From positions 46,013 to 110,012 of the forward strand of contig JAVTVY010025132.1 of the NCBI GenBank assembly GCA_036873755.1: a stretch of DNA of 64,000 bases. The letters are read 5' to 3'. Position 1 is the first letter of the stretch. Each line of letters opens with the position of its first letter. The DNA is from Hanleya hanleyi. Lineage: Eukaryota > Mollusca > Polyplacophora > Lepidopleurida > Hanleyidae. The position numbers and the translations under genes were made by a program. The notes under the pieces were generated by a model that worked only from the letters and a program-made list of their open reading frames with translations, did no database searches and was not told the DNA's origin. This document shows, piece after piece, positions 35,595 to 62,282 of the stretch.

Positions 35595-35600
35595 AGTGTA
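35595..35600. repeat. 6-bp target-site duplication, left (AGTGTA)
   Basis: AGTGTA abuts the element here and at 44264-44269. Taking one copy away rejoins the LINE endonuclease in frame (aspartate-threonine before the insert, leucine-aspartate-serine after), which confirms both boundaries. Confidence 0.95.
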
Positions 35601-35849
35601 AGTAGTATATAAAAGACCAATTGGGTCCCATTTATACAAATTTGTGGCGGTCACGTGGCGGCTCTCGACCAATCAGAAGCGAGTATTTCAAATCATCGAT
35701 GACCTCGCCCACCTCCATCACAGAAGAGTTCCAATCTAGGGGGAGGTAACTCTGGGTCACTATAGTTCCGGCAAAGGGCCCCTGGGCATGTATTCATCCG
35801 CGGTGATGCGGTTTTGGCGGTGATGCGGTCGCGGAAAAAAGCTTCCGCG

Positions 35850-37040
35850 GAGAAAAAGTAGTCCCTAGATAAAATGGTCCGATGGGGTCGAGTGAGGTAT
35901 CAAAGTGAAGCTTAGGTGAGGGGGCATCTAATGGGCTGGGTGTGGGATTGAAATATCGGCATTGTGCGCATGCGCGGTGGCCGAAGGGTATGGAAATAGC
36001 CGTTTTGGAGGTAGGGTCGAGTGAGGTATCAAAGTGAAGCCTAGGTGAAGGGGTATTTGCTGGCTGGGTGGGTGCATGTAAAATTTTTCCTGAAAAAAAA
36101 AAAATACGGAACACGGACGTTATCGAAAAACCTGGGAAAATGCCTATATGGGGTATGAGGGGTATATAGGTCGCCGGGCTTAACGGGGCTTGTCTATCAA
36201 TAGAGTTATCTCCCCCTAGTTCCAGGGTGGGTGTATGTAAAAATTTTCCTGAAAAAATACGGAATACGGATTTTATCCTAAATTACGGGAAAATGCCTAT
36301 ATGGGGTATGGGAGGTATAGGACCATCCTGGGAAACGTACTTCTATACATTTGCGGTAGGGTTGTGGGGTCTCGTTTTACTCGTCTCGTCATTTAGAACA
36401 TGATAGGAAGTGTCCCCGTGCGAATCGGTGAAATTTTTGAAAAAAGTCACCGAGCCCCATATAGTCCCATACTGAGGGTATAGGATCAATGTTTATCCCC
36501 CTGGGAAACGTACTTCTATACATTTGCGGTAGGGTTGTGGGGTCTCGTTTTACTCGTCTCGTCATTTAGAACACGATAGGAAGTGTTACGGAGCGAATCG
36601 GTGAAATTTTTGAAAAAAGTCACCGAGGCCTGGGTAGGCCCATAGGCCTATACTGCATGGCTATGGGTGTATAGGCCCATACGGGGTGGACATGTTGGAG
36701 TCTAGGTGAGTCCCTAATGGTCCAATGGGGTCGAGCGAGGTCTTATTTTGAAGCTCTCGTGGAGGAGCACTTGACCACTAATGGTTCGTCCGTGTTCAAT
36801 AGTCTGCGCATGCGCAGTCTGGCCGTAGTATAGAAAACAGGCATTTTGGGTGCTATGTAGGGGTGTGTTTGGGTTAGAGATGAGCTAATCACGGTTCGAA
36901 TGGGTCGTGTGAGGTATCAAAGTGAAGCTTGTGTGGCGTAGAGTCAGAATGGTGTGTTTTTGAATGCATGTCGCGTTAATATGCGCAGTTGGTTGTAGTA
37001 AGTAAAGTGGCCATTTTGGGGCAGTGAAGGAAGGTATTTG
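35850..37040. repeat. Subterminal tandem motif field, left arm
   Basis: Degenerate repeats of GGGGTCGAGTGAGGTATCAAAGTGAAGC are spaced by blocks holding TGCGCATGCGC palindromes (35965-35975, 36804-36817; another at 37247-37260). A second repeat pair (36310-36450 and 36490-36620) shares GGGAAACGTACTTCTATACA and GTGAAATTTTTGAAAAAAGT. Mirrored in the right arm at 42850-44000 and related to 61430-62070. Confidence 0.8.
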
Positions 37041-37129
37041 GGGTCGAGATGGGCTATTCACGGTTCGAATGCGTCCTGGAAGGTGTCATCTTGTAGTTCT
37101 CGGGGTGTACATTCCGATTTGAGGGATGT

Positions 37130-37420
37130 TCGCGTCATCTGTGACGTCATCGGTGACGTCATCGGTACGAGTAGTAGCGAAAGTGGCCATTTTCGGGCAG
37201 TACATGAAGGTATTTGGGGTCGAGATGGTGCGGTAGGAATATCATTCTGCGCATGCGCAGACGCAATGCGGAGCTCTCGTCCAATCAGAAGCGAGTATTT
37301 CAAATCAGTCACAGAGCTCTCAGCCAATCAGAAGCGAGTATTTTGACCAGGTGCATTATGGGCCATATCCAAGATGGCGGCACGTATGTTCAAGATGGCG
37401 GCACATCCGGTGTCGAAAAC
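37130..37420. promoter_or_regulatory. Cluster of CRE-, NRF1-, CCAAT- and YY1-like sites, left arm
   Basis: Two perfect TGACGTCA palindromes (37142-37149, 37154-37161), CTGCGCATGCGCAG (37247-37260), two CCAATCAGAAGCGAGTATTT copies (about 37281 and 37324) and two CAAGATGGCGGC copies (about 37370-37400). Related CCAATCAGA boxes lie at about 35670, 37638 and 37699. These match animal CREB/ATF, NRF1, NF-Y and YY1 consensus sites. Right-arm mirror: about 42450-42725. Binding and promoter activity are inferred. Confidence 0.55.
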
Positions 37421-37764
37421 TGGCCATTCCGTCGGGATGTGGTCACCTAGTGTCGAAAACTGGTCCTTGTTGACGCCATGATATAGACCGGAGAGAGAGA
37501 GAAAACAAGGATGACACATGAGGGAACAACAACAACAACAAGTTTTTTTTTCATATAGTTTATTTTCCCCTCCATCATAACATACCCACGCTGGGGGAGC
37601 CGCGTTGGGTATGTTTACAATTCAAGAAAGACTCTTTTCCAATCAGAGACCGCCATTTGCATCTGTCCTATTCGTTCCTGTCCGTTAGATGTATTCTTGT
37701 CCAATCAGAAGTCGCCATTTCAGAGAGTTCCTTCTTCGGTCATGTTCATTCTGAACCGTTTATT

Positions 37765-38337
37765 CTAATCATCGTCGGCCAGGCCTGGATATTCTTCGGG
37801 CAGCATGTCCTGAAACAGTTGTTTGCGCATTCTGATCGCATTTTCCAGGGCCTCGGTGGGTGGTAAACCCATATCCTCTTCCAAGTGACGCTTGGTCTTC
37901 ATGATGGACCTGTGCGTGGGGTCCTTTTTCATTTCAAGCGGTAGTAAGGTATACTGTTCATAGATCGCCATGGCTGTTTTCCTGATGCGGGGGCGCATTT
38001 GGGTGTACGTCTGTTGTAAATTATCCTCTCCGGCGTCCTCGATCGCTTCAGCGTGAGTATTGATAGCTGCTGTCACAATACGATCCCAGAAGTTAGGTTC
38101 TGCCTCACTTTCCTGGGATGAAGGCTGATTCTCTGAGGTCAAGCTCTCCATATCAGTAGATAGACTGTCAGCCATCTTGGATTCGGTATCAGTCGATGCA
38201 CTCTCATCAATCTCTGTATCAGTATCTGCCTCAACGGGCTCCTCGGCGTCTTCAGTCCCATTTATATTTTTCTGGTGTCGCATCATATCGTAATGTCTGG
38301 TGAACGTGCGTTCACACTCAGAACAAGTATAAGCCAT
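37765..38337 (-). CDS. Small C2H2 protein with shared C-terminal module (left arm)
   Basis: I chose the Met that begins the finger (MAYTCSEC) because the right-arm copy also starts there and TATAAAAG lies about 45 bp upstream; the frame is open 9 codons further to 38364. Layout: finger at residues 4-27 (CX2C-X12-HX4H plan), an acidic Ser/Thr-rich stretch to about 80, then a helical region to residue 191. The last zinc ligand is Asn here (His in the right arm), so the finger is probably broken. The C-terminal part (KDPTHRSIMKTKRHL and EALENAIRMRKQLF) resembles the end of the neighbouring ATPase. Role unknown; DNA binding is a guess from the finger. Confidence 0.7.
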   Translation of the reverse strand: MAYTCSECERTFTRHYDMMRHQKNINGTEDAEEPVEADTDTEIDESASTDTESKMADSLSTDMESLTSENQPSSQESEAEPNFWDRIVTAAINTHAEAIEDAGEDNLQQTYTQMRPRIRKTAMAIYEQYTLLPLEMKKDPTHRSIMKTKRHLEEDMGLPPTEALENAIRMRKQLFQDMLPEEYPGLADDD

Positions 38338-38363
38338 GTTGACGGTTGAACGTCGACTGTGCA

Positions 38364-38563
38364 TGTTTTGGGAATACGCTCGCTTTTATAGACAGTAACG
38401 CCCATCAACGCTTAGCTCAACGCTTCAACGCCCTGGTGAATTAGCTCAGAAGCTCTGATTTCATGGAATTGACACCAATTCATCGAAATGCTGTGACGCC
38501 CGTCAACGCCCGTCGTTACGCCTTAACGCTCGTCTCAACGCTTTAACACACTTTCTTAATGCT
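38364..38563 (-). promoter_or_regulatory. Intergenic region with TATA box and AACGC iterons, left arm
   Basis: Holds TATAAAAG (about 38385-38392, minus) upstream of the C2H2 gene, and many short direct repeats of AACGCCCGTC, TTAACGCT and CAACGCTT in a tight cluster just after the ATPase stop. Mirrored at 41303-41498. Iteron-like spacing could mark a replication or control region; that is inference. Confidence 0.5.
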
Positions 38564-39769
38564 TTAACGTTGTTTAATGATGCGTTCGAACAAATGCTTC
38601 TTTTGTGCTATTGCTCTGACATACGCCGCTTTCCAGTTCATGCCCGAGGTTTTCAACATCGACGCTGTTTTTTCAATTTCCATATGGACTGGGTCCTTAT
38701 CCAACAATTTCATATGGGTCAGTAAGTCGACATACTGCTGACGTAAAGCCCGTCGTAATCTGGGTGCCAATCTGTTATGGGCTAAAATTGCAGCTTCCTC
38801 TTTCGAATACCCTTTGCGTTGAAACTTGTTTCCTGTGGCCTCCAACATCCCGCCCATCTCGGCGTCCATACTTTCTTTGAACAAATCCTTCCATAGCCTC
38901 GAGTTCACATTATGTTCTTCAACCTCGGGTTGGGCCTTCACGGTTGAGTGATATTCCAGGACTGATGGTATGAAGCGGGCCCGCTGTATGGGGGTGGGCT
39001 TCTGCTGCTGCTCTGCCAGGAGTGCACTCGGCGGATGGTGTAGGGGTATAGGCCGTTGTGGTGATTCCTCGCCGGGTAACAGGCGGGTCGTCAGCCGACG
39101 ATCTTCGGGGGTATGGGCTTTTAAATCTACGAACAGGTAGCCGTACGGACGAATTGTCGCTTCTTGAAACGCCCACATAAAATGGTCAATGTTCTGAGGA
39201 TAAATTCGACTACCAAACACACGGATTTGCGCTCTATCAATGGGATTGGAGAACAACACAAAGTATTGGCAGTTCAAGGCAATATCTCTGGACGCTTTCC
39301 CTTGAGGAAAGAGATTCTGAGTCAAATAGATGACGGACAGATTTCGATGATGGGACCCTTTGGTGAATAGGTCGGCGATTTTCGAATTGTCCTTGGCCGC
39401 ACTCATCAGATCATCGAGCACTACCACGTTGGTCTGCTCGGAATCGAAGTAATAGGGTTCGTCTATGTCGTGAGGAATTCCTGGAACAAAGCTCACATTC
39501 TGTAGTCGTGCAGTTTCGTAGGCGGGCTGCCATTGGCTATAACACCAAACAACACGTGTCGGAGCTGGGGTTGCCACACCTTCCTCTAAGAACTTCATCA
39601 CCCAGGACGTCTTTCCACACCCCGTAGGGCCGCTCACCGTCATCGCATAAGGGTGCTCTAATACTGTCGTGTGTGACGTAGGTGTTGATCGTTCCTCGCG
39701 CGTACTTTGAATTTGCACGTTACCGGAACTGACCTTTGATCCCGGCGCGCGCGGTATAAAGGTTTCCAC
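38564..39769 (-). CDS. Packaging-type P-loop ATPase (left arm, finger-less)
   Basis: 401-codon intact frame. Walker A GPTGCGKTS at residues 47-55, Walker B NVVVLDD at about 114-120, then LFTKGSHHRNLSVIYLTQNL (sensor-like region) and NPIDRAQIRVFGSRIYPQN. This pattern fits FtsK/HerA- or A32-like genome-packaging ATPases carried by Polintons and related viruses, which pump DNA into capsids. The C-terminal third (about 290-400) is extra: a helical region ending in DPVHMEIEKTASML and VRAIAQKKHLFERI, similar to the end of the small C2H2 protein. The right-arm copy shows a C2H2 finger upstream; here a deletion of about 330 bp removed it and the first 16 or so codons read sequence near the palindrome centre. 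Confidence 0.8.
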   Translation of the reverse strand: METFIPRAPGSKVSSGNVQIQSTREERSTPTSHTTVLEHPYAMTVSGPTGCGKTSWVMKFLEEGVATPAPTRVVWCYSQWQPAYETARLQNVSFVPGIPHDIDEPYYFDSEQTNVVVLDDLMSAAKDNSKIADLFTKGSHHRNLSVIYLTQNLFPQGKASRDIALNCQYFVLFSNPIDRAQIRVFGSRIYPQNIDHFMWAFQEATIRPYGYLFVDLKAHTPEDRRLTTRLLPGEESPQRPIPLHHPPSALLAEQQQKPTPIQRARFIPSVLEYHSTVKAQPEVEEHNVNSRLWKDLFKESMDAEMGGMLEATGNKFQRKGYSKEEAAILAHNRLAPRLRRALRQQYVDLLTHMKLLDKDPVHMEIEKTASMLKTSGMNWKAAYVRAIAQKKHLFERIIKQR

Positions 39770-39782
39770 CGCGGTGGAAACC
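39761..39782. repeat. Centre of symmetry, 22-bp perfect palindrome
   Basis: GGTTTCCACCGC and its exact reverse complement meet between 39771 and 39772. Outside it the arms remain matched except that the left has about 7 extra bases (GCGGTATA area) and the right has the 330-bp finger region. Confidence 0.95.
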
Positions 39783-39837
39783 TTTGCGCGCCGGGGTCAA
39801 AGGTCAGTTACGGTCACGTGAACGGAAGCGGAAGTGA

Positions 39838-39976
39838 CCTCCGGAGCTCCGGAGCTCCGGAGCTCCGAGTTCTCTTGTAGCAACGCCCGTCAACGCCCGG
39901 TGGTGGCGTCGGAGCTCCGGAGCTCCGAGTTCCATGAGCTCCGGAGCTCCAAGAGCTCCGCGAGCTCGGAGCTCTT
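39838..39976. repeat. GGAGCTCC palindrome cluster, right arm only
   Basis: About ten GAGCTC cores, mostly as tandem GGAGCTCC, in 140 bp. They lie upstream of a TATA-like CATATAAAC (about 39977-39985) and the finger-ATPase gene. AACGCCCGTC repeats also occur here. Absent from the left arm because of its deletion. Confidence 0.75.
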
Positions 39977-40038
39977 GCATATAAACACACACATGCATCT
40001 GTGAAAGCTTCATTATACGCCTGGTGTCCGTGGAGATG

Positions 40039-41302
40039 AGAGCCATGGTTTACGCATGTCACTTGTGTTCGAAGTCATTTTCCACGCCATTTAATCTACG
40101 TAGACATATACAGCGAAGCCATCTCAAGGAACGGAGTCCCGATAACGTGCAAATTCAAAAGTACGCGCGAGGAACGATCAACACCTACGTCACACACGAC
40201 AGTATTAGAGCACCCTTATACGATGACGGTGAGCGGCCCTACGGGGTGTGGAAAGACGTCCTGGGTGATGAAGTTCTTAGAGGAAGGTGTGGCAACCCCA
40301 GCTCCGACACGTGTTGTTTGGTGTTATAGCCAATGGCAGCCCGCCTACGAAACTGCACGACTACAGAATGTGAGCTTTGTTCCAGGAATTCCTCACGACA
40401 TAGACGAACCCTATTACTTCGATTCCGAGCAGACCAACGTGGTAGTGCTCGATGATCTGATGAGTGCGGCCAAGGACAATTTGAAAATCGCCGACCTATT
40501 CACCAAAGGGTCCCATCATCGAAATCTGTCCGTCATCTATTTGACTCAGAATCTCTTTCCTCAAGGGAAGGCGTCCAGAGATATTGCCTTGAACTGCCAA
40601 TACTTTGTGTTGTTCTCCAATCCCATTGATAGAGCACAAATCCGTGTGTTTGGTAGTCGAATTTATCCTCAGAACATTGACCATTTTATGTGGGCGTTTC
40701 AAGAAGCGACAATTCGTCCGTACGGCTACCTGTTCGTAGATTTAAAAGCCCATACCCCCGAAGATCGTCGGCTGACGGCCCACCTGTTACCCGGCGAGGA
40801 ATCACCACAACGGCCTATACCCCTACACCATCCGCCGAGTGCACTCCTGGCAGAGCAGCAGCAGAAGCCCACCCCCATACAGCGGGCCCGCTTCATACCA
40901 TCAGTCCTGGAATATCACCCAACCGTGAAGGCCCAACCCCAGGTTGAAGAACATAATGTGAACTCGAGGCTATGGAAGGATTTGTTCAAAGAAAGTATGG
41001 ACGCCGAGATGGGCGGGATGTTGGAGGCCACAGGAAACAAGTTTCAACGCAAAGGGTATTCGAAAGAGGAAGCTGCAATTTTAGCCCATAACAGATTGGC
41101 ACCCAGACTACGACGGGCTTTACGTCAGCAGTATGTCGACTTACTGACCCATATGAAATTGTTGGATAAGGACCCAGTCCATATGGAAATTGAAAGAACA
41201 GCGTCGATGTTGAAAACCTCGGGCATGAACTGGAAAGCAGCGTATGTCAGAGCAATAGCACAAAAGAAACATTTGTTCGAACGCATCATTAAACAACGTT
41301 AA
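40039..41302 (+). pseudogene. C2H2 finger plus P-loop ATPase (right arm, frameshifted)
   Basis: First part: a frame opening at ATG 40024 or 40039 encodes a good finger (ACHLCSKSF...NLRRHIQRSH, CX2C-X12-HX4H) and runs to the NVQIQ residues that also occur in the left-arm ATPase. One extra A in a short A-run near 40160 then shifts the frame. The ATPase continues in another frame from 40223 (Walker A just inside) to 41302, matching the left arm at nearly every residue. The right arm thus shows that the ATPase gene once carried an N-terminal finger, but this copy is broken. TATA-like sequence at about 39977. Confidence 0.75.
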
Positions 41303-41498
41303 AGCATTAAGAAAGTGTGTTAAAGCGTTGAGACGAGCGTTAAGGCGTAACGACGGGCGTTGACGGGCGTCACTGCATTTCGATGAATTGGTGTCAATTC
41401 CATGAAATCAGAGCTTCTGAGCTAATTCACCAGGGCGTTGAAGCGTTGATGGGCGTTACTGTCTATAAAAGCGAGCGTATTCCCGTTCAACCGTCAAC
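41303..41498 (+). promoter_or_regulatory. Intergenic region with AACGC iterons and TATA box, right arm
   Basis: Mirror of 38364-38563: TTAAAGC, GTTAAGGCG, GACGGGCGTTGACGGGCGT repeats, then TATAAAAG (41463-41470) about 30 bp before the ATG at 41499. Confidence 0.5.
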
Positions 41499-42070
41499 AT
41501 GGCTTATACTTGTTCTGAGTGTGAGCGCACGTTCACCAGACATTACGATATGATGCGACACCAGAAAAATATACATGGGACTGAAGACGCCGAGGAGCCC
41601 GTTGAGGCAGATACTGATACAGAGATTGATGAGAGTGCATCGACTGATACCGAATCCAAGATGGCTGACAGTCTATCTACTGATATGGAGAGCTTGACCT
41701 CAGGGAATCAGCCTTCATCCCAGGAAAGTGAGGCAGAACCTACCTTCTGGGATCGTATTGTGACAGCAGCTATCAATACTCACGCTGAAGCGATCGAGGA
41801 CGCCGGAGAGGATAATTTACAACAGACGTACACCCAAATGCGCCCCGCATCAGGAAAACAGCCATGGCGATCTATGAACAGTATACCTTACTACCGCTTG
41901 AAATGAAAGGGAACCCCACGCACAGGTCCATCATGAAGACCAAGCGTCACTTGGAAGAGGATATGGGTTTACCACCCACCGAGGCCCTGGAAAATGCGAT
42001 CAGAATGCGCAAACAACTGTTTCAGGACATGCTGTCCGAAGAATATCCAGGCCTGGCCGACGATGATTAG
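41499..42070 (+). pseudogene. Small C2H2 protein (right arm, frameshifted)
   Basis: Starts at MAYTCSEC. The finger is complete here (final His present, unlike the left arm). A C-run near 41845-41850 is one base shorter than in the left arm (four C for five), so the frame shifts before the C-terminal module, which continues in another frame from about 41864 to 42070. Left and right copies are damaged at different points. Confidence 0.8.
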
Positions 42071-42449
42071 AATAAACGGTTCAGAATGAACATGACCGAA
42101 GAAGGAACTCTCTGAAATGGCGACTTCTGATTGGACAAGAATACATCTAACGGACAGGAACGAATAGGACAGATGCAAATGGCGGTCTCTGATTGGACAA
42201 GGGTCTTTCTTGAATTGTAAACATACCCAACGCGGCTCCCCCAGCGTGGGTATGTTATGATGGAGGGGAAAATAAACAATATGAAAAAAAAAAACTTGTT
42301 GTTGTTGTTCCCTCATGCGTCCTCCTTGTTTTCTCTCTCTCTCCGGTCTATATCATGGCGTCAAAACGTCTAGCAGGACCCATACAAGGACCAGTTTTCG
42401 ACACTAGGTGACCACATCCCGACGGAATGGCCAGTTTTCGACACCGGAT

Positions 42450-42725
42450 GTGCCGCCATCTTGAACATACGTGCCGCCATCTTGGATATGGCCCATAATG
42501 CACCTGGTCAAAATACTCACTTCTGATTGGCTGAGAGCTCTGTGACGGATTTGAAATACTCGCTTCTGATTGGACGAGAGCTCCGCATTGCGTCTGCGCA
42601 TGCGCAGAATGATATTCCTACCGCACCATCTCGACCCCAAATACCTTCATGTACCGCCCGAAAATGGCCACTTTCGCTACTACTCGTACCGATGACGTCA
42701 CCGATGACGTCACAGATGACGCGAA
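42450..42725. promoter_or_regulatory. CRE/NRF1/CCAAT/YY1-like cluster, right arm
   Basis: Inverted counterpart of 37130-37420: GCCGCCATCTTG twice (about 42450-42485), TCTGATTGG twice, CTGCGCATGCGCAG (about 42593-42606) and two TGACGTCA sites (about 42693 and 42705). Confidence 0.55.
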
Positions 42726-42849
42726 CATCCCTCAAATCGGAATGTACACCCCGAGAACTACAAGATGGCACCTTCCAGGACGCATTCGAACCGTGAATAG
42801 CCCATCTCGACCCCAAATACCTTCCTTCACTGCCCAAAATGGCCACTTT

Positions 42850-44000
42850 ACTTACTACAACCAACTGCGCATGCGCAGATTAACGCGACATGCATTCAAA
42901 AACACACCATTCTGACTCTACGCCACACAAGCTTCACTTTGACACCTCACACGACCCATTCGAACCGTGATTAGCTCATCTCTAACCCAAACACACCCCT
43001 ACATAGCACCCAAAATGCCTGTTTTCTATACTACGGCCAGACTGCGCATGCGCAGACTATTGAACACGGAAGAACCATTAGTGTAGTCAAGTGCTCCTCC
43101 ACGAGAGCTTCAAAATAAGACCTCACTCGACCCCATTGGACCATTAGGGACTCACCTAGACTCCAACATGTCCACCCCGTATGGCCCTATACACCCATAG
43201 CCATGCAGTATAGGCCTATGGGCCTACCCAGGCCTCGCTGACTTTTTCAAAAAATTTCACCGATTCGCTCCGTAACACTTCCTATCGTGTTCTAAATGAC
43301 GAGACGAGTAAAACGAGACCCCACAACCCTACCGCAAATGTATAGAAGTACGTTTCCCAGGGGGATAAACATTGAACCTATACCCCAGTATGGGACTATA
43401 TGGGGCTCGGTGACTTTTTTCAAAAATTTCACTGATTCGCACGGGGACACTTCCTATCATGTTCTAAATGACGAGACGAGTAAAACGAGACCCCACAACC
43501 CTACCGCAAATGTATAGAAGTACGTTTCCCAGGATGGTCCTATACCTCCAATACCCCATATAGGCATTTTCCCGTAATTTAGGATAAAGTCCGTATTCCG
43601 TATTTTTTCAGGAAAAGTTTTACATACACCCACCCTGGAACTAGGGGGAGATAACTCTATTGATAGACAAGCCCCGTTAAGCCCGGCGACCTATATACCC
43701 CTCATATCCCATATAGGCATTTTCCCAGGTTTTTCGATAAAGTCCGTGTTCCGTTTTTTTTTTTTTCAGGAAAAATTTACATGCACCCACCCAGCCAGCA
43801 AATACCCCTTCACCTAGGCTTCACTTTGATACCTCACTCGACCCCATTCGACCATTAGGGGCTCCCCTAGCTCCCAAAACGGCTATTTCCATACCCTTCG
43901 GCCACCGCGCATGCGCACAATGCCGATATTTCAATCCCACACCCAGCCCATTAGATGCCCCCTCACCTAAGCTTCACTTTGATACCTCACTCGACCCCAT
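42850..44000. repeat. Subterminal tandem motif field, right arm
   Basis: Inverted counterpart of 35850-37040, with TGCGCATGCGC palindromes near 42868, 43045 and 43908 and CACTTTGATACCTCACTCGACC repeats. Small indels against the left arm. Confidence 0.8.
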
Positions 44001-44263
44001 CGGACCATTTTATCTAGGGACTACTTTTTCCGCGACCGCATCACCGCCAAAACCGCATCACCGCGGATGAATACATGCCCAGGGGCCCTTTGCCGGAACT
44101 ATAGTGACCCAGAGTTACCTCCCCCTAGATTGGAACTCTTCTGTGATGGAGGTGGGCAAGGTCATCGATGATTTGAAATACTCGCTTCTGATTGGTCGAG
44201 AGCCGCCACGTGACCGCCACAAATTTGCATAAATCGGACCCAATCGGTCTTTTATATACTACT

Positions 44264-44269
44264 AGTGTA
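44264..44269. repeat. 6-bp target-site duplication, right (AGTGTA)
   Basis: Partner of 35595-35600. Confidence 0.95.
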
Positions 44270-44945
44270 TCTGGTAGGACTGCCCATTCTGATTTAACTG
44301 CTAGTTCGGGAGAGACTATTGTTAGGTCAATTGCAGTGAGTTTACCGGTTCGCATATCTATTCTAGTCCCTTCTCCCGAGTTCAGGAATACGAGGTTATT
44401 ATCATCTAACCATTTTTCTACTGATTTTCCCCTATCATCTGACGTGGTGCAAGTTTCGTCCCAGATTGGATTATGGCTATTATAATCGCCGCAGATTATA
44501 ATTGGCGAGTCATATTTTTGGGTGATTTTGTTAAGTTCTTTTTGTGATATTGTTTTTAGAGTGCCAGGGGAGTACAGATTCACTATATTAATAGGTTTAT
44601 TATTTTGGAACACCCGTATAGCTTGCCATTCGAGGTCTTCATTTTCTGGGCTCTTGTCTAATTCTAGCTGTATGAGTTCTTCCTTAACTAGTGTGAGGTT
44701 GCCTCCCTTTGGGCCGTTTAGTCTGTCTTGTCTATATGGCGTATATCCTTTTATTGCAAATTTATTTTTTCCTGGTTTAAGAAATGTTTCTTGTATACAT
44801 ATGATGTCAGGGCTTATTTCATTTACTAAGATTTTGAGATTGTCTCCGTGTTTTGCAATGCTATTTGCATTCCATTGTAGTAGGGTGAGTTTATTGAAAA
44901 TTGGGTTGTGTATTACGTGGTGGGTCTAATCTATTGTCCCAGGTG
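44270..44945 (-). pseudogene. I-like LINE ORF2: APE endonuclease, N-terminal part
   Basis: Reads an apurinic-type endonuclease: LLQWNANSI, PDIICIQETF (metal-binding Glu), IVNLYSPG, IIICGDYNSHN (Asp and Asn of the active site), then the frame is cut by the Polinton-like element just before the final SDH motif, which lies at 35560-35590. Open without a stop over the 225 codons visible. It begins close to the end of ORF1. Confidence 0.85.
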
Positions 44946-44948
44946 TTC

Positions 44949-46008
44949 TCATATAGAGGTGTTGAGGGCGTTATATTTTTTCTTGGGAGTTGATGTTTTT
45001 CTTTTGTATTTCGGATTGAATCCCCATGCTATTATTTCTTTGGGGTTAAATTCCCAATTCAAGAAGTCTTGAGCAATGCGGGCTATTATGTCAGCTTTAT
45101 TCGTTTTGGGGTTGGCATTGTGGACTGAGTTAATAACAATGTTAATAAAGCCTAGGAATTCGATTTTACTCATACTAATTGTTTCGGGTTTGTCCGCGGT
45201 TTCTGACTCCATTGATTGTTCTGTCACTGGTGCCTTATTGATATTTGCTACTTCGCTCACAGGTTTTCGCAGGTCTATTGTTTCTTTGAGTTTTTGATTC
45301 ACTTTAGTTTCTGTGATTTTTCTATTCATTCTGGTTTCTTTTACAGCTTCTGCGTAAGAAATTCCTTTGTCTGCCTTAGTGAATTCAACTCTTTTTGCCT
45401 CTTTGAAAGCTATACAACCCTTGTAGGCCGCTGAATGGTTGCCTTTGCAGTTTACACATGTTACTTTTCTTTCTGTACATTCTTCGTATTTATGATTTTC
45501 AGAGCATTTCGCACATACAACTTGGGATTTACAAAATCTAGCTATATGACCACCATATTTCTGACAGTTATGGCATCGTTTTGGTGTGTCAAAAAAAGGT
45601 TTAACTATAATGTTACGAAGCCATAGCCGGACAGTTTCCGGTAAGTTTGATCCTTTGAATACTAGCATAATGCTTGTCGTTTCCTGTTTGTTCTTTTGCA
45701 TTCTTTTGGCATATACGACGTTTTGTTTTGAGAGAGTGGGGAGAATGTCTTCTAGTTTGATACTGAGGTCAATTCCATAAATTACTCCTTTACATTGCTC
45801 TCTAGGCTGTATGAATTGTTTTACCGAGACAGGATTATCTGCTAGCAGGTCTAAACGTAGTAATTTCTCGTACTGAGTTTGTGATTTGCAGTGGACTTTC
45901 AGATCACCACCCGGCAGTTCAAAGATTTGATGTACGTCACCAGCACATTTTTTTAGATCGTTTGCTACCTTGGCCTTTGGAATTTACATGCTCTCATTTG
46001 GGTTAAAC
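44949..46008 (-). pseudogene. I-like LINE ORF1 (gag-like), C-terminal part
   Basis: RNA-binding gag-like protein of the LINE. Three consecutive zinc knuckles are visible: CHNCQKYGGHIARFC, CAKCSENHKYEEC and CVNCKGNHSAAYKGC. Upstream is a segment resembling the gag domain of I-like elements (AGDVHQIFELPGGDLKV, KGVIYGIDLSI). A stop lies near 45980. The Gypsy composite interrupts the gene at 46008; the N-terminus is on the far side at 54833-54970. Confidence 0.8.
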
Positions 46009-46012
46009 TATG
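46009..46012. repeat. 4-bp target-site duplication, left (TATG)
   Basis: TATG here and at 54829-54832, directly outside TGTAAGAG and CTCTTACA. Four to five bp is typical of Gypsy insertions. Confidence 0.75.
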
Positions 46013-47667
46013 TGTAAGAGAACGTAGAGACACTCCGGAATAAAGGAAGATAAAACACCACATCTGGAGTCTGATGTTCTTTTATATACCAACGAATTCC
46101 AAGTACACACAATCCTGGACCAAGTCCTGTCAATACAAAGATACAATTTGTAAAGTTTGTTTATCAAAATAGGACTGGTATTTTACTTATATGGTAACCA
46201 TGGTGATAACAGACCAACGCGATACCATGCCTAAACTACATCGAGTTTGTGATGTGGGGGAAATGCACCCTAAGTGCGATATCGAAATGGAGAATGAATA
46301 TCAGAAGGAAGTACCCGTCTCCTTATCAAGGAACTAGAATTATTAATGAATGACTGGAACAATTAATCAATGACTAGAACAATTAACCAATGACTAGAAC
46401 AATAACTGCATAGTGGAATTAACAATTGATTAAGTTGACAAATAATATGACAATTCATGACTCGGCATGGACAGTGACAATGACATAATGAATACCAGAA
46501 ATAGCGAATTATGACTAGAATATTCAATGCATTAATTGGTGAATCATTGCTGACAAATTAATCAAAGGACATTGACTTATTAAGTAATCATGAGGCTGAC
46601 TGATAATTATTAACATGAAGTGGACCACTGACAGAATCCATCCAACAATATATGCCGAAAGCATTATTCATGTAATTTACGGTAATACATTCTTACCCCC
46701 AACTGCCACTTGGGGAGTTAGTTACACACTTCTCCAGTTACACACCATTAACATGCTGATCATGGATGCACATCATCATCTGTAATATGATACAACACTG
46801 TCCACTATTATAGAGTATAATCAAATTAATTCAATGAAATCTAACCTAATCAATTTATCTAGCCAATTCAATGAAAACGCTTGTCTAATTATGTCTGAAT
46901 AAAAATCTTAATATTACAATTATTTCATACAATCACTTGTCCCGGCTGTTTGCTATATCTAGTTACATGTATATATATGGAGTAAGGGAGGGAACTTTGC
47001 ACTGGCAAATTGCACATGTACGGCTTCACTATGCAAGCCACGCGTGCATCAAGAAATCTCTATGAAAACAATACATTTTCATCAATCCCAATATTTCATG
47101 TTATCTAATTGATTCTATTGTCATTCATTATCGCTATAATTAAATGATTCGTATCTGAATAGCAGGCAACTTCCTTTGAACTTCATACCAGTGTTACAAT
47201 GTATAGCACACGTTATCGCTATGCAAGAAAACAATAAAATGCGTTCCTCAATCTGACAATCTTACAAAATTCCATAAGTTCCCGCTCTGCTCTACATTTA
47301 TATCGTACATTCATAGATCAGATGGCTAAGTTACTCACATTTCTGGGCCTCCAAGCCTCCGCAGAAATCAGAAAATGTCGCATTAAATGCAGGATACAAA
47401 ATGAACAAAATGGCTGAAACACATGGTCAAGACGGAGTCACGTGATCTCTAAACATAGAGTCCCTGAGCAGAAATAATTGCTCTAACAAACTTAGTATTT
47501 CATTAATACATTATCCACAAGTTGTACAATCTATCAATACAGAAAATAACGTCTGAAAGACGTCTTGAGGGACAGATTTCTAGCAGTAATACAAAACCCT
47601 AACTGCAGGCAGGAGTGGTTAAGGACTCAATTCACAAATACAATAGAGGTCCCTAATGGCCTCTACA
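46013..47667 (-). repeat. Inverted LTR, complete
   Basis: 1,655 bp. Read on the minus strand it runs from TGTAGAGGCC to CTCTTACA, like the 3' LTR at 53171-54828. It differs from the plus LTRs at GGGACTCTATG versus GGGAATAAGTTCGTATG. With the next LTR it forms a 3.1-kb inverted repeat centred near 47668. Confidence 0.9.
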
Positions 47668-47668
47668 C

Positions 47669-49126
47669 GGGAATAAGTTCGTATGTTTAGAGATCACGTG
47701 ACTCCGTCTTGACCATGTGTTTCAGCCATTTTGTTCGTTTTGTATCCTGCATTTAATGCGACATTTTCTGATTTCTGCGGAGGCTTGGAGGCCCAGAAAT
47801 GTGAGTAACTTAGCCATCTGATCTATGAATGTACGATATAAATGTAGAGCAGAGCGGGAACTTATGGAATTTTGTAAGATTGTCAGATTGAGGAACGCAT
47901 TTTATTGTTTTCTTGCATAGCGATAACGTGTGCTATACATTGTAACACTGGTATGAAGTTCAAATGAAGTTGCCTGCTATTCAGATACGAATCATTTAAT
48001 TATAGCGATAATGAATGACAATAGAATCAATTAGATAACATGAAATATTGGGATTGATGAAAATGTATTGTTTTCATAGAGATTTCTTGATGCACGCGTG
48101 GCTTGCATAGTGAAGCCGTACATGTGCAATTTGCCAGTGCAAAGTTCCCTCCCTTACTCCATATATATACATGTAACTAGATATAGCAAACAGCCGGGAC
48201 AAGTGATTGCATGAAATAATTGTAATATTAAGATTTTTATTCAGACATAATTAGACAAGCGTTTTCATTGAATTGGCTAGATAAATTGATTAGGTTAGAT
48301 TTCATTGAATTAATTTGATTATACTCTATAATAGTGGGCAGTGTTGTATCATATTACAGATGATGATGTGCATCCATGATCAGCATGTTAATGGTGTGTA
48401 ACTGGAGAACTGTGTAACTACCTCCCCAAGTGGCAGTTGGGGGTTAGAATGTATTACCGTAAATTACATGAATAATGCTTTCGGCATATATTGTTGGATG
48501 GATTCTGTCAGTGGTCCACTTCATGTTAATAATTATCAGTCAGCCTCATGATTACTTAATAAGTCAATGTCCTTTGATTAATTTGTCAGCAATGATTCAC
48601 CAATTAATGCATTGAATATTCTAGTCATAATTCGCTATTTCTGGTATTCATTATGTCATTGTCACTGTCCATGCCGAGTCATGAATTGTCATATTATTTG
48701 TCAACTTAATCAATTGTTAATTCCACTATGCAGTTATTGTTCTAGTCATTGGTTAATTGTTCTAGTCATTGATTAATTGTTCCAGTCATTCATTAATAGT
48801 TCTAGTTCCTTGATAAGGAGACGGGTACTTCCTTCTGATATTCATTCTCCATTTCGATATCGCACTTAGGGTGCATTTCCCCCACATCACAAACTCGATG
48901 TAGTTTAGGCATGGTATCGCGTTGGTCTGTTATCACCATGGTTACCATATAAGTAAAATACCAGTCCTATTTTGATAAACAAACTTTACAAATTGTATCT
49001 TTGTATTGACAGGACTTGGTCCAGGATTGTGTGTACTTGGAATTCGTTGGTATATAAAAGAACATCAGACTCCAGATGTGGTGTTTTATCTTCCTTTATT
49101 CCGGAGTGTCTCTACGTTCTCTTACA
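47669..49126 (+). repeat. 5' LTR, truncated at its U3 end
   Basis: Begins GGAATAAGTTCG, equivalent to 53375 in the 3' LTR, so roughly the first 204 bp are gone. It ends CTCTTACA just before the primer-binding site. A GGTATATAAAAG motif at about 49049-49060 is a likely TATA box. Confidence 0.9.
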
Positions 49127-51555
49127 TGGTGTCAGAAGTGGGATATTGTCCAGAGGCGTTTGTGGAGATAGATGGGGTTGGAACACAGTGCTTGCTTGAT
49201 ACCGGAGCTCAGGTGTCCACGATGACGGAAACATTCTTCAAGAAGAATCTATCAGACCGGAACTTGACGGATGTGATGCCATACATCAGGATCTATGCTG
49301 CGAATGGCCAGGACATTCCCTTTGTGGGCTTTGTACAAGTGGACATAAAAGTCTTGGACTGTGTCTTTAAGGAGGTGGGCTTCTTAGTTGTTAAAGATGT
49401 TGATGGAATTATGGGAAAACGCAAAAGGGATGTTCCCATTGTTGTTGGGTCAAACATCTTTCGGGAGATGAAAAACAGTACCCCAGCGGGTCGCAACAAA
49501 CCAAAAAAATGGAGGAAAATCCTTGCGATGTACGAAGAGTCTAGGGTTTCTGAGGAACATATGGAAGTAGAGACTAGGGTCAGAGTGGCTGGAAAGAAGC
49601 CAGTCTTGCTACCTGCTCGTTCAATCACGGTGGTAGAATGTACTGTAAAACCTTCACCAGCCGGTGATTTTTCAGCTTTGGTTGAACCGGACGAAACTGG
49701 ACCAGTATTGCCAGACGGAGCTCGTCTTGGGCCAACTTTTGTTACTGTCAGCCGCAGCGGCAAAGTTGCAGTGCAGTTTGCAAACTTTTCCAGTACAGAT
49801 GTGTATCTGCAACCCCGGACAACAGTGGGAGTGCTCAAGCAGGCTTCCAAAGAACCTGAAATAGAAGTGGTTTCCGTGGGAGTGAATGCGGTCCAAGTTA
49901 GAAGCAAAACAGAGTGTGGTGTTGAGTTACAGACTCAGTATGCAGATGGTTTGATTTCAAGGATGGACATTGGCAACCATCTTGATGGGGAGCAGAAGAG
50001 TAAGCTATCCGAGGTCATAGCAAAACATGAAGGGACATTTAGCAAATCAGAGGATGACATCGGATTTTGTGACGAAGTCGAACACCGGATCATAACCACG
50101 GATGACCAACCCGTCAAGATTGCGCATCGCCGTATTCCACCTCAGCAGTGGTCCGAGGTCAGAGACTACCTGCAGAAATCTCTGGATAATGGAGTCATAA
50201 GGGAGAGTTCCAGCCCATATGCCTCTCCAGTGGTTCTGGCACGCAAGAAAAATGGCAAGTTGAGGCTATGCTGCGACTACAGGGCACTGAATGCCAAAAC
50301 CAGAAAAGACGCCTACCCCTTGCCAAGGATAGAGGAGGCTTTGGACGCGTTAAAAGGTGCAAAATATTTCTGTAGCCTGGACTTGGCTCATGGGTTCCAT
50401 CAAATTCCTGTAGCGGAATCTGACATAGAGAAAACCGCCTTCCGTGTGGGAACCGGAGGTCTGTATGAGTATTTGAGAATGCCCTTTGGGTTAACTGGGG
50501 CTCCTGGGACGTTCATGCGGCTCATGGACCGGATTTTCGGAGACCAGAACTTTCAAACTGTCCTCATCTATCTTGATGATATACTGATATTTGGATCTAC
50601 TTTCGAGGAGACGCTGGAACGTTTAGATATGGTCCTCACGAGGCTATGTCATTTCAACCTGAAAGTAAAACCTGAAAAATGCCAATTGTTCAAGGACCAA
50701 TTGCGATACCTAGGACATGCCATTTCTGAGGAGGGTGTTCGTCCAGATGAGGACAAGGTACGTGCGGTGAGAGAGTGGCCAAAACCAAAGACCGAGACAG
50801 AATTGCGTGGATACATGTGTCTTGCCAGTTATTATCGGCGCTTCGTTCAGGACTTCTCCAAGATATCGGTCCCTCTCAACCGATTGCTTTCTGGACCTAG
50901 GCCCCAGAAAAAGTGTAAAAGCCACAAACCCTCTGGGATTTCTTCCTGGGATGGTTCCTGTTATGAGGCATTTGAGACACTGGAAGTTAAACTAACAGAA
51001 GCACCGGTACTAGGTTACCCTGATTTTGGACATCCCTACATCCTGGAGGTCGATGCTAGTAATCTTGGATTAGGCGCCGTCCTGTCACAGGAGCAAGCCG
51101 GACGACGGGTTGTGTTGAGCTATGCAAGTAGGTCCCTCAGAAGGAATGAACGCAACATGAACAATTACTCAAGCATGAAATTAGAACTCTTAGCCCTAAA
51201 GTGGGCAGTGGCAGAAAAGTATCGGGACTTGCTACTCGGTGCCGATTGTGTTGTCTATACAGATAACGATCCTTTGACGTACATCCAGAAGAGTGCGAAA
51301 CTGGGAGCCACTGAAATGCGGTGGGTTGGCGAGCTGGCTCAGTTTAACCTAACCATCAAACATCGTTCAGGTAAACAAAACAAGAATGCAGACTCTCTCA
51401 GCCGGAAGGTGGAGCATTCTCCGGAAGTTGGTCGGTTGGAGCAAGTGACAGCTGAAACTGGAAGACCGTTTGAACAAACCTCAACTAGGATAACTCCTGA
51501 AGTGAGGGAATGTGCTCTACAGGTACACCTGAGGCACTACGTTCAACTGTGTTAA
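49126..51555 (+). CDS. Gypsy pol: protease, reverse transcriptase, RNase H
   Basis: Open frame of 810 codons from an ATG spanning the LTR/primer-site junction; the frame is open further back to 49006 inside the LTR. Protease active site LLDTGAQ lies about 23 residues in. RT shows VLARKKNGKLRLCCDYRALN, YCSLDLAHGFHQIP and the catalytic YLDD (DNA 50569-50580). RNase H shows LEVDASNLGLGAVLSQ and VYTDNDPLTYI. No gag precedes it, which is abnormal. It ends at 51555, where the integrase continues in another frame after a short overlap. Confidence 0.9.
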   Translation: MVSEVGYCPEAFVEIDGVGTQCLLDTGAQVSTMTETFFKKNLSDRNLTDVMPYIRIYAANGQDIPFVGFVQVDIKVLDCVFKEVGFLVVKDVDGIMGKRKRDVPIVVGSNIFREMKNSTPAGRNKPKKWRKILAMYEESRVSEEHMEVETRVRVAGKKPVLLPARSITVVECTVKPSPAGDFSALVEPDETGPVLPDGARLGPTFVTVSRSGKVAVQFANFSSTDVYLQPRTTVGVLKQASKEPEIEVVSVGVNAVQVRSKTECGVELQTQYADGLISRMDIGNHLDGEQKSKLSEVIAKHEGTFSKSEDDIGFCDEVEHRIITTDDQPVKIAHRRIPPQQWSEVRDYLQKSLDNGVIRESSSPYASPVVLARKKNGKLRLCCDYRALNAKTRKDAYPLPRIEEALDALKGAKYFCSLDLAHGFHQIPVAESDIEKTAFRVGTGGLYEYLRMPFGLTGAPGTFMRLMDRIFGDQNFQTVLIYLDDILIFGSTFEETLERLDMVLTRLCHFNLKVKPEKCQLFKDQLRYLGHAISEEGVRPDEDKVRAVREWPKPKTETELRGYMCLASYYRRFVQDFSKISVPLNRLLSGPRPQKKCKSHKPSGISSWDGSCYEAFETLEVKLTEAPVLGYPDFGHPYILEVDASNLGLGAVLSQEQAGRRVVLSYASRSLRRNERNMNNYSSMKLELLALKWAVAEKYRDLLLGADCVVYTDNDPLTYIQKSAKLGATEMRWVGELAQFNLTIKHRSGKQNKNADSLSRKVEHSPEVGRLEQVTAETGRPFEQTSTRITPEVRECALQVHLRHYVQLC
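49127..49144 (+). other. Primer-binding site, tRNA-Leu-like
   Basis: TGGTGTCAGAAGTGGGAT directly follows the LTR. It is close to the complement of animal tRNA-Leu 3' ends (TGGTGTCAGGAGTGGGAT type), one mismatch from memory. Confidence 0.6.
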
Positions 51556-53072
51556 GGTCTGTGCATGATGAAATGGGCCATCAATGTGCAGAGAGAACGC
51601 TTGCCCTGCTGAGAGAGAGATGCTTCTGGCCATTCATGGCACGGGACGTGAACTGTTACTGTCTGAAATGTGAACGGTGCATGATGGCGAAGGTAGGACG
51701 AAACGTGAGGCCTTCCATTGGATCTTTGATAGCAAAGAAACCCCTAGAAATCGTGGCAATAGACTTTACACTTCTAGAACCAGGTACCAATGGTGTTGAA
51801 AACGTATTAGTGTTAACGGATGTGTACACGAAATTTACACAAGCCATACCAACCAGGGACCAAACAGCAAAGACTGTTGCCAAAGTACTAATCAAGGAAT
51901 GGTTTGTGAAGTTCGGTGTGCCTCAGAGGATACACAGTGATAAAGGCCGAAACTTTGAGAGCGAACGGATTGGAGAACTATGTAGTATTTATGGTGTGAT
52001 CAAAACGAGCACGACCCCATACCATCCGCAGGAAAATGGTCAATGCGAACGGTACAACAGAACACTCCGGACACTTCCTAACGAGAGGAAGCGGAAATGG
52101 CCTGACTATTTGCCGGAATTGGTATACGCCTATAACTGTACGCCCCATGCCACCACTGGGTTTTCTCCACACTTCCTCTTCTTTGGAAGAGAGCCCCGAC
52201 TGCCCTTGGATACCATGTTAGGTGTTGGAGGTCCTGTGAATGACCTACATGAGGAGGATCCTGCTGAGCATCAGCAGAAGCTGCAGGAAGCCTTTAGAAT
52301 GGCCAGTGAACGCACTGAACGTGAAGCCCTCAAAAGGAGGAACAGAGTTAACAAGAATGCACAGGATGTCGAGATACCAGTGGGAGGCCGTGTCTTTTTG
52401 AGGAGTCACCCGAAAGGCCGCCACAAAATTCATGACCTGTGGGACCCTAGACCGTACAGAGTAATTGACAAAAGGGACTACAATCAGTATGTAGTGGAGA
52501 ACTTGGAAGGTGACACAAAGCAGAAAACTGTGCATCGCTCTCAGATGTTGGACGCGAGAGAGCTAGTTCCTGATATTGTACCGAGGAGTGCATCGGATAT
52601 ACAGGAGGAAAAGGAGCATTCCACTCCTGCAGATGTTCGATTAGACGACGAGGATTACTGGGTAGTAACAGAGGGATCGCCTGAGGGATGCAGAGACCCG
52701 GGAAATGATGCGTCTGGGGATCCTGAGGTTGTGAGTGATGGGACCGCTGAGGCAGGCGATGTCGCGGATGCTGGCGAGGCTGTGGAGGTCGAGCCAGAGC
52801 AACCTGTGAGGCCAGTGGATGACCCAGCTCAAGGTACCCAGGTGGAAGTCGGAGATATTCCTGGTCAGCAAATAACAGGGGAGCTTGGAGCCAACGACAG
52901 AGAAGGATCTGAGGACGTGGATCTTGAGATGCCCAGACGGAGAACGGCACGTTCCACGGCGGGTTCCCACAGTAACCCATGCAAACTTCCAAGGTCTGTC
53001 TTGGAACAGGAAGCCGCTGCTAATGTAGATCCCATTGTGTTAGCGAACATCAGCCAGACACAGTTTTGTTAG
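51510..53072 (+). CDS. Gypsy pol: integrase
   Basis: 520 codons; the first Met (51510) is not a natural start, as pol normally continues from RNase H. HHCC zinc domain (HDEMGHQ...CERC), then a core with Asp at residue 85 (VAIDF), Asp at 144 (IHSDKG) and Glu at 180 (GQCERYN), giving the D-D35-E spacing. A GPY/F-like module follows (DPRPYRVIDKRDYNQYVV). The last 180 residues are acidic and low in complexity, with no chromodomain seen. The frame change at 51510-51555 may be a mutation or a programmed shift. Confidence 0.88.
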   Translation: MCSTGTPEALRSTVLRSVHDEMGHQCAERTLALLRERCFWPFMARDVNCYCLKCERCMMAKVGRNVRPSIGSLIAKKPLEIVAIDFTLLEPGTNGVENVLVLTDVYTKFTQAIPTRDQTAKTVAKVLIKEWFVKFGVPQRIHSDKGRNFESERIGELCSIYGVIKTSTTPYHPQENGQCERYNRTLRTLPNERKRKWPDYLPELVYAYNCTPHATTGFSPHFLFFGREPRLPLDTMLGVGGPVNDLHEEDPAEHQQKLQEAFRMASERTEREALKRRNRVNKNAQDVEIPVGGRVFLRSHPKGRHKIHDLWDPRPYRVIDKRDYNQYVVENLEGDTKQKTVHRSQMLDARELVPDIVPRSASDIQEEKEHSTPADVRLDDEDYWVVTEGSPEGCRDPGNDASGDPEVVSDGTAEAGDVADAGEAVEVEPEQPVRPVDDPAQGTQVEVGDIPGQQITGELGANDREGSEDVDLEMPRRRTARSTAGSHSNPCKLPRSVLEQEAAANVDPIVLANISQTQFC

Positions 53073-53157
53073 TACAGATGTTAACCGGAATTAAGCAGTA
53101 GGCTTAATTTGTATCTTATTGTAACCGACGGTAATATGTTGTCAGGGACGACAACAG

Positions 53158-53170
53158 ACAAGCGGGGGAG
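53158..53170 (+). other. Polypurine tract
   Basis: Purine-rich AAGCGGGGGAG immediately before the TGTAGAGG start of the 3' LTR, where plus-strand DNA synthesis is primed. Confidence 0.7.
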
Positions 53171-54828: not shown

Positions 54829-54832
54829 TATG
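54829..54832. repeat. 4-bp target-site duplication, right (TATG)
   Basis: Partner of 46009-46012. Confidence 0.75.
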
Positions 54833-54970
54833 GATGATGGCGATAAAATTTGCTAGACTACTAGGCCTTTCGGGTAGGGATCGTTGTTTTTCGGTGGGTG
54901 AGGGTTTTTCAGTGTTGATTTCTGAGAGCTTCCTTTTAGGTGTTTTTACGGTGGCTTGAGAGGCTTCCAT
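54833..54970 (-). pseudogene. I-like LINE ORF1, N-terminal fragment
   Basis: Minus frame from ATG at 54970 with a basic, Ser/Thr/Pro-rich start (MEASQATVKTPKRKLSEI) and no stop up to the Gypsy composite. Its position and orientation fit the missing start of ORF1. The frame does not join the 46008 side cleanly, so ORF1 also has small lesions. Confidence 0.6.
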
Positions 54971-55250: not shown

Positions 55251-55284
55251 GGTCCAATTCAATTCAATTCAATATTAAATTTAG

Positions 55285-62280: not shown

Positions 62281-62282
62281 GG

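Follow-up and report, generated by a model that had tools for sequence, protein, structure and literature searches.

The window, a 64,000-nucleotide stretch of Hanleya hanleyi DNA, contains a mobile element that is palindromic over its entire 8,663-bp length (35601-44263). We regard it as probable that the element is a non-autonomous Polinton/Maverick derivative, which is moved and copied in trans and whose arms are mirrored by single-strand self-pairing. The near-perfect 8.7-kb palindrome described in the first-pass annotation is recovered by both BLAST and two-arm alignment (Table 1). In BLAST, element positions 1-4130 match 8663-4535 in inverted orientation at 96% identity, and the two arms differ at 82 of 4,116 aligned bases. 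The final 171 aligned bases adjoining the axis hold 24 of these mismatches, and the 3,945 bases away from it hold 58 (~1.5%). A chance origin is excluded by the length and identity of the arms. A search of positions 1-35000 and 44900-64000 for other inverted repeats of at least 100 nt found none in 1-35000; to the right of the element it returned matches of up to 1,445 nt between 46010-49126 and 53170-54831, which look like copies of one LTR, and a further repeat at 56297-58216 (up to 201 nt).

Table 1 Features of the palindromic element and its insertion site (window coordinates).
Feature	Position	Strand	Remarks
Left arm of palindrome	35601..39772	+	BLAST, two-arm alignment
Right arm of palindrome	39773..44263	-	BLAST, two-arm alignment
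Left terminus, AGTAGTATATAAAAG	35601..35615	+	(AGT)2 Maverick-type end
Right terminus	44249..44263	-	same 15 bases, inverted
Target duplication AGTGTA, left copy	35595..35600	.	6 bp
Target duplication AGTGTA, right copy	44264..44269	.	6 bp
Interrupted LINE endonuclease	44270..44925	-	in-frame continuation at 35600 and below
ATPase (predicted packaging), left copy	38564..39796	-	open stop-to-stop frame
ATPase motor and C-terminal domain (predicted packaging), right copy	40040..41302	+	open stop-to-stop frame
N-terminal C2H2 finger, right ATPase copy	40036..40150	+	limits by eye
Gene 2, left copy	37765..38337	-	190 aa, open frame
Gene 2, right copy	41469..42070	+	two frames: 41469-41906, 41816-42070
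176-bp subrepeat marker, left arm	37160..37193	+	one copy
176-bp subrepeat marker, right arm	42661..42694	-	one copy
Axis hairpin	39725..39811	.	common to other ATPase palindromes read
Central sequence on right of axis only	39773..40095	.	~322 bp missing from left arm

Both termini carry AGTAGTATATAAAAG as originally described, and the flanking AGTGTA duplication is present on both sides and perfect at 6/6 bases. The Polinton-type character proposed for these ends is borne out, since part of PMC8097293 reports for vertebrate Mavericks both the (AGT)2 motif at the ends and duplications of 6 bp. When the element is left out and the flanks are joined with a single AGTGTA, a 277-aa LINE endonuclease frame is restored over the junction, in agreement with the continuity noted at first. 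Duplication after insertion was considered and rejected: the symmetry does not extend past the termini, and the axis and the one-sided centre recur in copies at other sites.

The two genes attributed to each arm, an ATPase and a C2H2 gene (gene 2), were both found, with the reservation that in the right arm a frameshift separates the ATPase finger from the motor, and gene 2 is split; the finger is in frame in other copies. The left ATPase lacks the N-terminal finger and the upstream side because of a one-sided central deletion. Gene 2 comprises a C2H2 finger, an acidic linker and a C-terminal helical domain with no motor, and its C-terminal domain is common to the ATPase (hhalign E 6.5e-9). 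The ATPase shares 42% identity over 202 aa with its counterpart in C27644, an ordinary Polinton found in the same genome. In a fold search, adenovirus IVa2 and A32-like ATPases lead and adintovirus and Sputnik ATPases also match, at TM-scores of about 0.3-0.4 of the query; the Pfam Pox_A32 score falls under the Pfam cut-off. Sequence and predicted fold support the earlier assignment to the Polinton-family packaging type (A32/FtsK-HerA), and a check of the ATPase copies read turned up no ATPase of an unrelated family. A relative of the ATPase was sought in IMG/VR viral contigs (17 pattern matches, 0 confirmed) and a sequence match among solved structures (none found); the search for relatives of gene 2 gave 0 hits, and that for the C2H2 gene of other palindromes gave 1. 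The ATPase shows a pN/pS of 0.41 over 78 non-independent pairs, with variable sites, mostly singletons, distributed 29/28/43 by codon position, which is weak evidence of selection. For gene 2, pN/pS is 0.66 and the codon positions (18/18/20) are hardly biased.

When nine ordinary-Polinton proteins from the same genome were used as tblastn queries, the ATPase alone was found in the element, once per arm. No match was obtained with two polymerases, with 315 aa of one integrase, or with the major capsid protein (MCP), a minor capsid candidate and the protease. The absence of polymerase and integrase inferred previously thus stands, and neither gene was seen between the arms of the ATPase copies read. 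Ordinary Polintons able to supply both are abundant in the genome, as the dependence on another element would require: among the matches listed, at least 16 contigs (counted by eye) have both polymerase and integrase, ~6.5-12 kb apart. Such Polintons could mobilise the element, although with C27644 it has only AGTAGTA in common at the presumed end.

The palindromic organisation extends to other copies. Nine ATPase loci were read, six running beyond the axis and three ending before it; all 6 testable loci are mirrored about the common hairpin, or 5/5 when the doubtful C52357 is set aside. The ATPase palindrome C20985 is 10,320 bp long, with AGTAGT ends and, judged from its flanks, a perfect 6-bp duplication (CACCTA); C29965, with other genes aboard, is 10,858 bp long, with AGTAGT ends and a perfect CGTGTC duplication. 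Perfect duplications occur in 3/5 palindromes having both ends located, and those of two polymerase palindromes match at 4/6 and 1/6 bases only. An origin of the symmetry in fold-back reads or amplification chimaeras is highly improbable. Such artefacts may exist in the assembly, as the symmetry of C52357 extends past the expected element ends at 99.9% identity, and C52357 may itself be one. The window copy, C20985 and C29965, however, are symmetric only as far as their termini, their 6-bp duplications are perfect and their arms carry their own mutations; in a 20-kb stretch containing an ordinary Polinton, no inverted match exceeds 166 bp. For the window copy we therefore reject an artefact on its termini, duplications and arm-specific mutations.

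The centre of the palindrome differs from its arms. The 22-bp palindrome previously reported at the meeting point is real but incomplete as a description, as the centre is a longer interrupted hairpin, with the axis of the window copy near 39773. At the centre the right arm exceeds the left by about 322 bp, and this right-only sequence includes the ATPase's N-terminal zinc finger together with its upstream side. The same one-sided deletion adjoining the axis is found in C20985, at a different genomic site, and C29965 has a 2.4-kb unpaired centre. The arms, on the other hand, are closely matched. The number of 176-bp repeats per arm ranges from 1 to 8 among related elements, yet left and right counts are equal in 6/7 palindromes (1/1, 4/4, 8/8, 3/3, 3/3 and 7/7), the seventh being C52357 (2/1); in C29965 and C38907 the repeat spacing is mirrored too. 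Over the terminal 250 bp, arms of the same ATPase-type element agree at 239, 249 and 248 of 250 positions, whereas comparisons between elements give 155-168 matches over 197-229 aligned positions. Arms that match while a one-sided central deletion is shared indicate that whole palindromes move, with arms mirrored and centres spared. These observations suggest that the palindrome itself is the moving unit, its symmetry kept during spread. Fold-back copying of a truncated genome, as proposed in the first-pass annotation, may have created the symmetry; in addition, some ongoing process seems to keep the arms mirrored while leaving the centre alone.

Two other histories were weighed against these comparisons. 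A single ancient fold-back at the axis hairpin may have produced a palindromic master that later spread by plain transposition with no ongoing mirroring, a history we hold to be rather unlikely. It accords with the one axis common to the ATPase palindromes read and with the star-shaped arm tree of the gene region, where WIN_L/WIN_R (1.15%) stands against 1.05-1.10% for WIN_R/C20985; arms hardly closer within than between elements point to recent common descent there, not homogenisation. The polymerase palindromes fit it as well, with ends no closer within elements (227/250 and 214/248 matches) than between the two (219-231 of 248-250); these palindromes do not display mirrored ends, which counts against continuing mirroring. 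By contrast, the ATPase-type ends and the 176-bp counts match within elements and differ between them, and spacing is mirrored, so that a single master would need both arms to change alike by chance. The other history, in which the palindrome is rebuilt each cycle by fold-back at the axis hairpin with one arm as template for the other, would account for the matched arms and the hairpin conserved at the axis. It is unlikely, however, because rebuilding would remove or double the one-sided deletion common to the window copy and C20985 and cannot yield the unpaired centre of C29965.

The favoured reading, a trans-mobilised Polinton/Maverick derivative with self-pairing arms, may be pictured as follows. 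The terminal inverted repeats of an ancestor would have been enlarged until they filled the element. Insertion would be carried out in trans by a Polinton-type integrase, an enzyme suggested by the observed ends and 6-bp duplications, and a protein-primed polymerase, also acting in trans, would start copying from the ends. The displaced single strand could then fold back as a ~4-kb hairpin, whose stem, by repair or copying, would equalise the arms while the unpaired centre escapes; we infer this stem-pairing step because arms agree and centres do not. The retained ATPase and its motor-less sister protein may choose the element's own DNA for helper capsids. As far as sequence can tell, the element would in effect be a satellite of ordinary Polintons.

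Genes of a Polinton-type virus might instead be split across palindromic segments (ATPase, polymerase, capsid) of a multipartite integrating genome, which we consider distinctly unlikely. C4967 and C41214 are palindromes whose sole large gene is a polymerase, C43707 is a palindrome with a capsid fragment, C2H2 fingers are present on proteins of each of these kinds, and contig C1199, with a AGTAGTAGTATAAG end, has a protease and the capsid fragment. Of the 18 contigs matching the polymerase family over at least 1.7 kb at 88% or more, however, only 5 show inverted pairs, the ends of polymerase palindromes hardly align to those of ATPase palindromes, the capsid frame on the palindrome is a C-terminal fragment of 257 aa compared with 436 aa, and the 126 integrase matches scored, out of 30,374 candidates, included no inverted pair. 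We are equally doubtful of the broader notion of a virus-like integrating system of self-complementary palindromic segments (packaging motor, polymerase and part of the capsid), each mirrored by folding of its own single strand and nearly all terminal repeat.

The element resembles Polintons/Mavericks in its (AGT)2 ends, 6-bp duplications, inverted terminal repeats and A32/FtsK-type packaging ATPase, but is 8.7 kb long against the 15-20 kb given in a portion of PMC4028283. It also differs in having no polymerase, integrase, protease or capsid matches, inverted repeats that cover its full length, and an ATPase with a fused zinc finger in intact copies. Helper-dependent satellites, such as capsid-forming phage satellites, bring packaging genes; the element is likewise small, devoid of replication and integration genes, equipped with a packaging gene and surrounded by abundant helpers, but it is eukaryotic, palindromic and known here from its sequence. 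In retaining a packaging motor and a motor-less sister but neither polymerase nor integrase, the element points to packaging as what counts in its spread. The palindromes of Tetrahymena rDNA and amplified genes, which arise at a short inverted repeat, are also large and centred on a short hairpin, but the present one is mobile and high-copy. Foldback transposons share very long inverted repeats flanking a small centre; to our knowledge they are not Polinton relatives, and their ends differ. Adenovirus inverted terminal repeats form panhandles, and those of AAV and adenovirus, like the element's, can pair on a single strand, but theirs are short whereas the element's repeat is 4.2-4.5 kb and fills it. 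Repair of an incomplete AAV end via a single-stranded panhandle is described in part of PMC11575299. No description of palindromic Polintons was found in the titles and abstract openings of the open-access PMC papers listed. A high-copy derivative made up almost wholly of terminal repeat, with arms mirrored and centre not, would be a natural record of strand pairing during Polinton copying. Palindromic elements may split assemblies at the axis and so escape notice: among 40 ATPase places scored full-length, 10 begin at contig base 290-711 with the gene pointing into the contig, as though assembly had halted at the axis.

The element in the window is a single palindrome, with arms paired at 96% (BLAST) and 82 mismatches at 4,116 positions of a base-by-base alignment, 24 of which fall within the final 171 bases adjoining the axis. 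The surrounding LINE encodes a reverse transcriptase and an endonuclease, and the 277-aa endonuclease frame crosses the junction once the element and one AGTGTA are removed. The near-perfect 8.7-kb palindrome, the AGTGTA duplication and the continuity of the endonuclease on either side described in the first-pass annotation are thus borne out. The palindromic element is genuine and also occurs at other loci; the window copy is a non-autonomous, fully palindromic Polinton derivative.

Coordinates and ends of the palindromes and repeats described in the text (for contigs other than the window, coordinates give the stretch examined)
Locus	Coordinates	Length	Feature	Terminal sequence	6-bp duplication
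Window	35601–44263	8,663 bp	ATPase palindrome	AGTAGTATATAAAAG, left and right	AGTGTA, both flanks
C20985		10,320 bp	ATPase palindrome		CACCTA
C29965		10,858 bp	Long arms, unpaired centre		CGTGTC
C4967	15000–34999	~17 kb	Polymerase palindrome	AGTAGTATAG
C41214	87500–106500	~17 kb	Polymerase palindrome	AGTAGTATAG
C43707	8600–14450		Capsid-fragment palindrome
C1199	24500–32265		Relative of C43707	AGTAGTAGTATAAG, one end
C16655	2500–12499		Palindrome with other genes, axis near 1489
Window	46010–49126, 53170–54831	3.1 kb (palindrome)	Inverted LTR copies
Window	56190–58260		Inverted tandem arrays
Window	61400–62070		Repeats outside the element

Both arms carry an ATPase and a second gene (gene 2), reading outward from the centre. 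The annotated content of an ATPase and a C2H2 gene per arm is present. A frameshift separates finger from motor in the right ATPase; the left ATPase has no finger. An in-frame C2H2 finger opens the ATPase in copies C52357 and C13998. A protein search returned 400 ATPase relatives at E ≤ 0.001; among the 120 of these listed, many have precomputed Pox_A32 or adenovirus IVa2 domains and some bear C2H2 fingers. Pfam Pox_A32 scored under its cut-off on the window-copy ATPase. In a search with the predicted fold (mean pLDDT 81), IVa2 of adenovirus and a packaging ATPase of A32-like type led the matches, which also included Sputnik V3 and an FtsK-like protein from an adintovirus (E values from 1e-8 to 2e-6; TM-scores 0.33–0.40 of the query). 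These predicted-fold matches support the suggested packaging type, as does an alignment of 202 aa at 42% identity with the ATPase of C27644, an ordinary Polinton elsewhere in this genome. Gene 2 has a C2H2 finger and a C-terminal helical domain that is also present in the ATPase (hhalign E 6.5e-9; BLASTP E 2e-4), and may be read as its motor-less sister; a protein search yielded no significant gene 2 relative among 85 candidates.

The element was searched by tblastn with nine C27644 proteins and with three queries taken from other loci, namely another polymerase, a protease and a capsid fragment. The ATPase alone gave a match, in agreement with the claimed absence of polymerase and integrase. 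Within 20 kb, C27644 carries a polymerase, named from a Pfam search, and what we take, by eye and from familiar motifs, to be a protease, a major capsid protein, a minor capsid candidate, an ATPase and most of an integrase. No inverted match above 166 bp was found in this stretch, and a related protease scored under the Pfam cut-off. Across the genome (2.48 Gb, 52,793 contigs), first-look searches gave 1,723 candidates for the polymerase (84 scored, 164 matches), and 30,374 for the integrase (126 scored). The capsid fragment gave 26,736, and each of the 150 that were scored reached at least 98% identity. Among the matches listed, at least 16 contigs hold, by eye, both polymerase and integrase, around 6.5–12 kb apart. 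Ordinary Polintons are abundant in this genome, and the tens of thousands of integrase and capsid candidates, with the near-identity of the scored capsid matches, suggest a very large recent expansion.

Searched genome-wide, the left end of the window copy gave 3,816 candidates, of which 40 were scored; for the ATPase there were 3,935, and the 40 scored were all at around 99%. Nine ATPase loci were read wholly or partly: the window copy, C20985, C13998, C32036, C52357, C17909, C20294, C2050 and C20941. The question whether copies are always palindromic receives a partial answer, since all six loci whose contig passes the axis are mirrored about the same hairpin, and in the other three the contig stops short of the second arm. 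One of the six, C52357, is doubtful; it is mirrored at 99.9% past the expected ends, and this excess symmetry may be an artefact. In C17909 the assembled part of the second arm is only some 400 bp long. Ten of the ATPase places scored over the full length (40 in all) begin at base 290–711 of their contig, which puts the contig start near the axis; this count covers only genes that read away from the start. The same axis hairpin also lies at the axis of the C16655 palindrome, whose genes encode C2H2 proteins almost without relatives.

Both ends were located in five palindromes, three of which (window copy, C20985, C29965) have perfect 6-bp duplications. The two polymerase palindromes are more diverged (arms 92–93%), and their duplications match at four of six bases in C41214 and one of six in C4967. 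The true ends of C13998 and C32036 were looked for and not found; on one side of these two, and perhaps of C20294, a common, unrelated stretch lies at the expected terminus. Around 322 bp beside the axis is absent on one side only, in both the window copy and C20985. Whole palindromes move, because sites and duplications differ while the axis and the one-sided centre agree.

Comparing the two ends of one element over the terminal 250 bp gives 239 matching positions for the window copy, 249 for C20985 and 248 for C29965; between these elements, 155–168 of 197–229 aligned positions match. The 176-bp units per arm number 1/1 (window copy), 4/4 (C20985), 8/8 (C29965), 3/3 (C13998), 3/3 (C32036) and 7/7 (C38907). 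The doubtful C52357 has 2/1. These counts leave out C16655, C3358 and C43707, which are mirrored too. Uneven unit spacings are mirrored as well in C29965 and C38907. Since ends and repeat numbers differ between ATPase-type elements yet are alike in both arms, one arm appears to correct or copy the other while the centre escapes, which we regard as evidence for continuing arm symmetry in these elements. The gene block gave no arm-matching signal, its arms being about as close between elements as within them; across the window copy and C20985, only four sites there tell the four arms apart, three by element and one by side. The mirrored-end pattern was not seen in the terminal 250 bp of the two polymerase palindromes (227/250 and 214/248 within, 219–231 of 248–250 between). 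A single strand of the element could fold into a stem formed by both arms, leaving the centre as a loop; repair within this stem would match the arms and spare the centre, as observed. The Polinton polymerase is described as protein-primed (PMC4028283, PMC8097293), and in AAV an incomplete inverted repeat is described as repaired via a single-stranded panhandle (PMC11575299). C29965 lacks the ATPase; its arms (4.24 kb, 98.6% identical) flank an unpaired 2.4-kb centre that holds the greater part of two C2H2 genes, both pointing the same way. It resembles an intermediate on the way from ordinary terminal repeats to a complete palindrome.

The ATPase has a pN/pS of 0.41 over 309 codons (78 non-independent pairs from 13 of 14 arms, C52357_R excluded), stops in 2 of 14 arms, and 29/28/43 variable sites by codon position, mostly singletons. 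For gene 2, pN/pS is 0.66, variable sites number 18/18/20, and none of 14 arms has a stop. Because a packaging motor and its motor-less sister are kept while ordinary Polintons surround them, the gene content suggests a satellite that would steer its own DNA into helper capsids; the selection figures support this weakly.

That Polinton genes are divided among several palindromes seems improbable to us. Polymerase B, interrupted by breaks and with C2H2 fingers at its start, is indeed the sole large gene per arm of C4967 and C41214, and C43707, mirrored at 97% across the stretch read, carries the C-terminal fragment of a capsid gene together with a C2H2 gene and a frame that, judged by eye, encodes a small protein of membrane type. 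However, the polymerase and ATPase palindromes differ in terminal sequence, the capsid gene on the palindrome is cut short, and the 126 scored integrase matches include no inverted pair. The polymerase family gave 45 candidates (40 scored); requiring a match no shorter than 1.7 kb and no lower than 88% leaves 18 contigs, of which five (C4967, C17501, C41214, C28015, C4519) have divergent inverted pairs and 13 a single match. C33134 has a shorter inverted pair. C1199 also carries a protease. The capsid fragments of the C43707/C1199 group (257-aa frames) are 98–99% identical to parts of long genome-wide capsid frames, and are possibly recently captured or interfering.

Three further repeats were observed in the window. 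Those at 61400–62070 are around 74–82% similar to pieces of the element arms. The 3.1-kb palindrome, unrelated to the Polinton one, appears to be built from a pair of LTRs in inverted orientation (99%); a third copy lies past a retrotransposon with integrase-type frames. The two inverted arrays are A/T-run-rich tandem repeats of around 72 bp with AAGTCGTTATAACGACTT palindromes.
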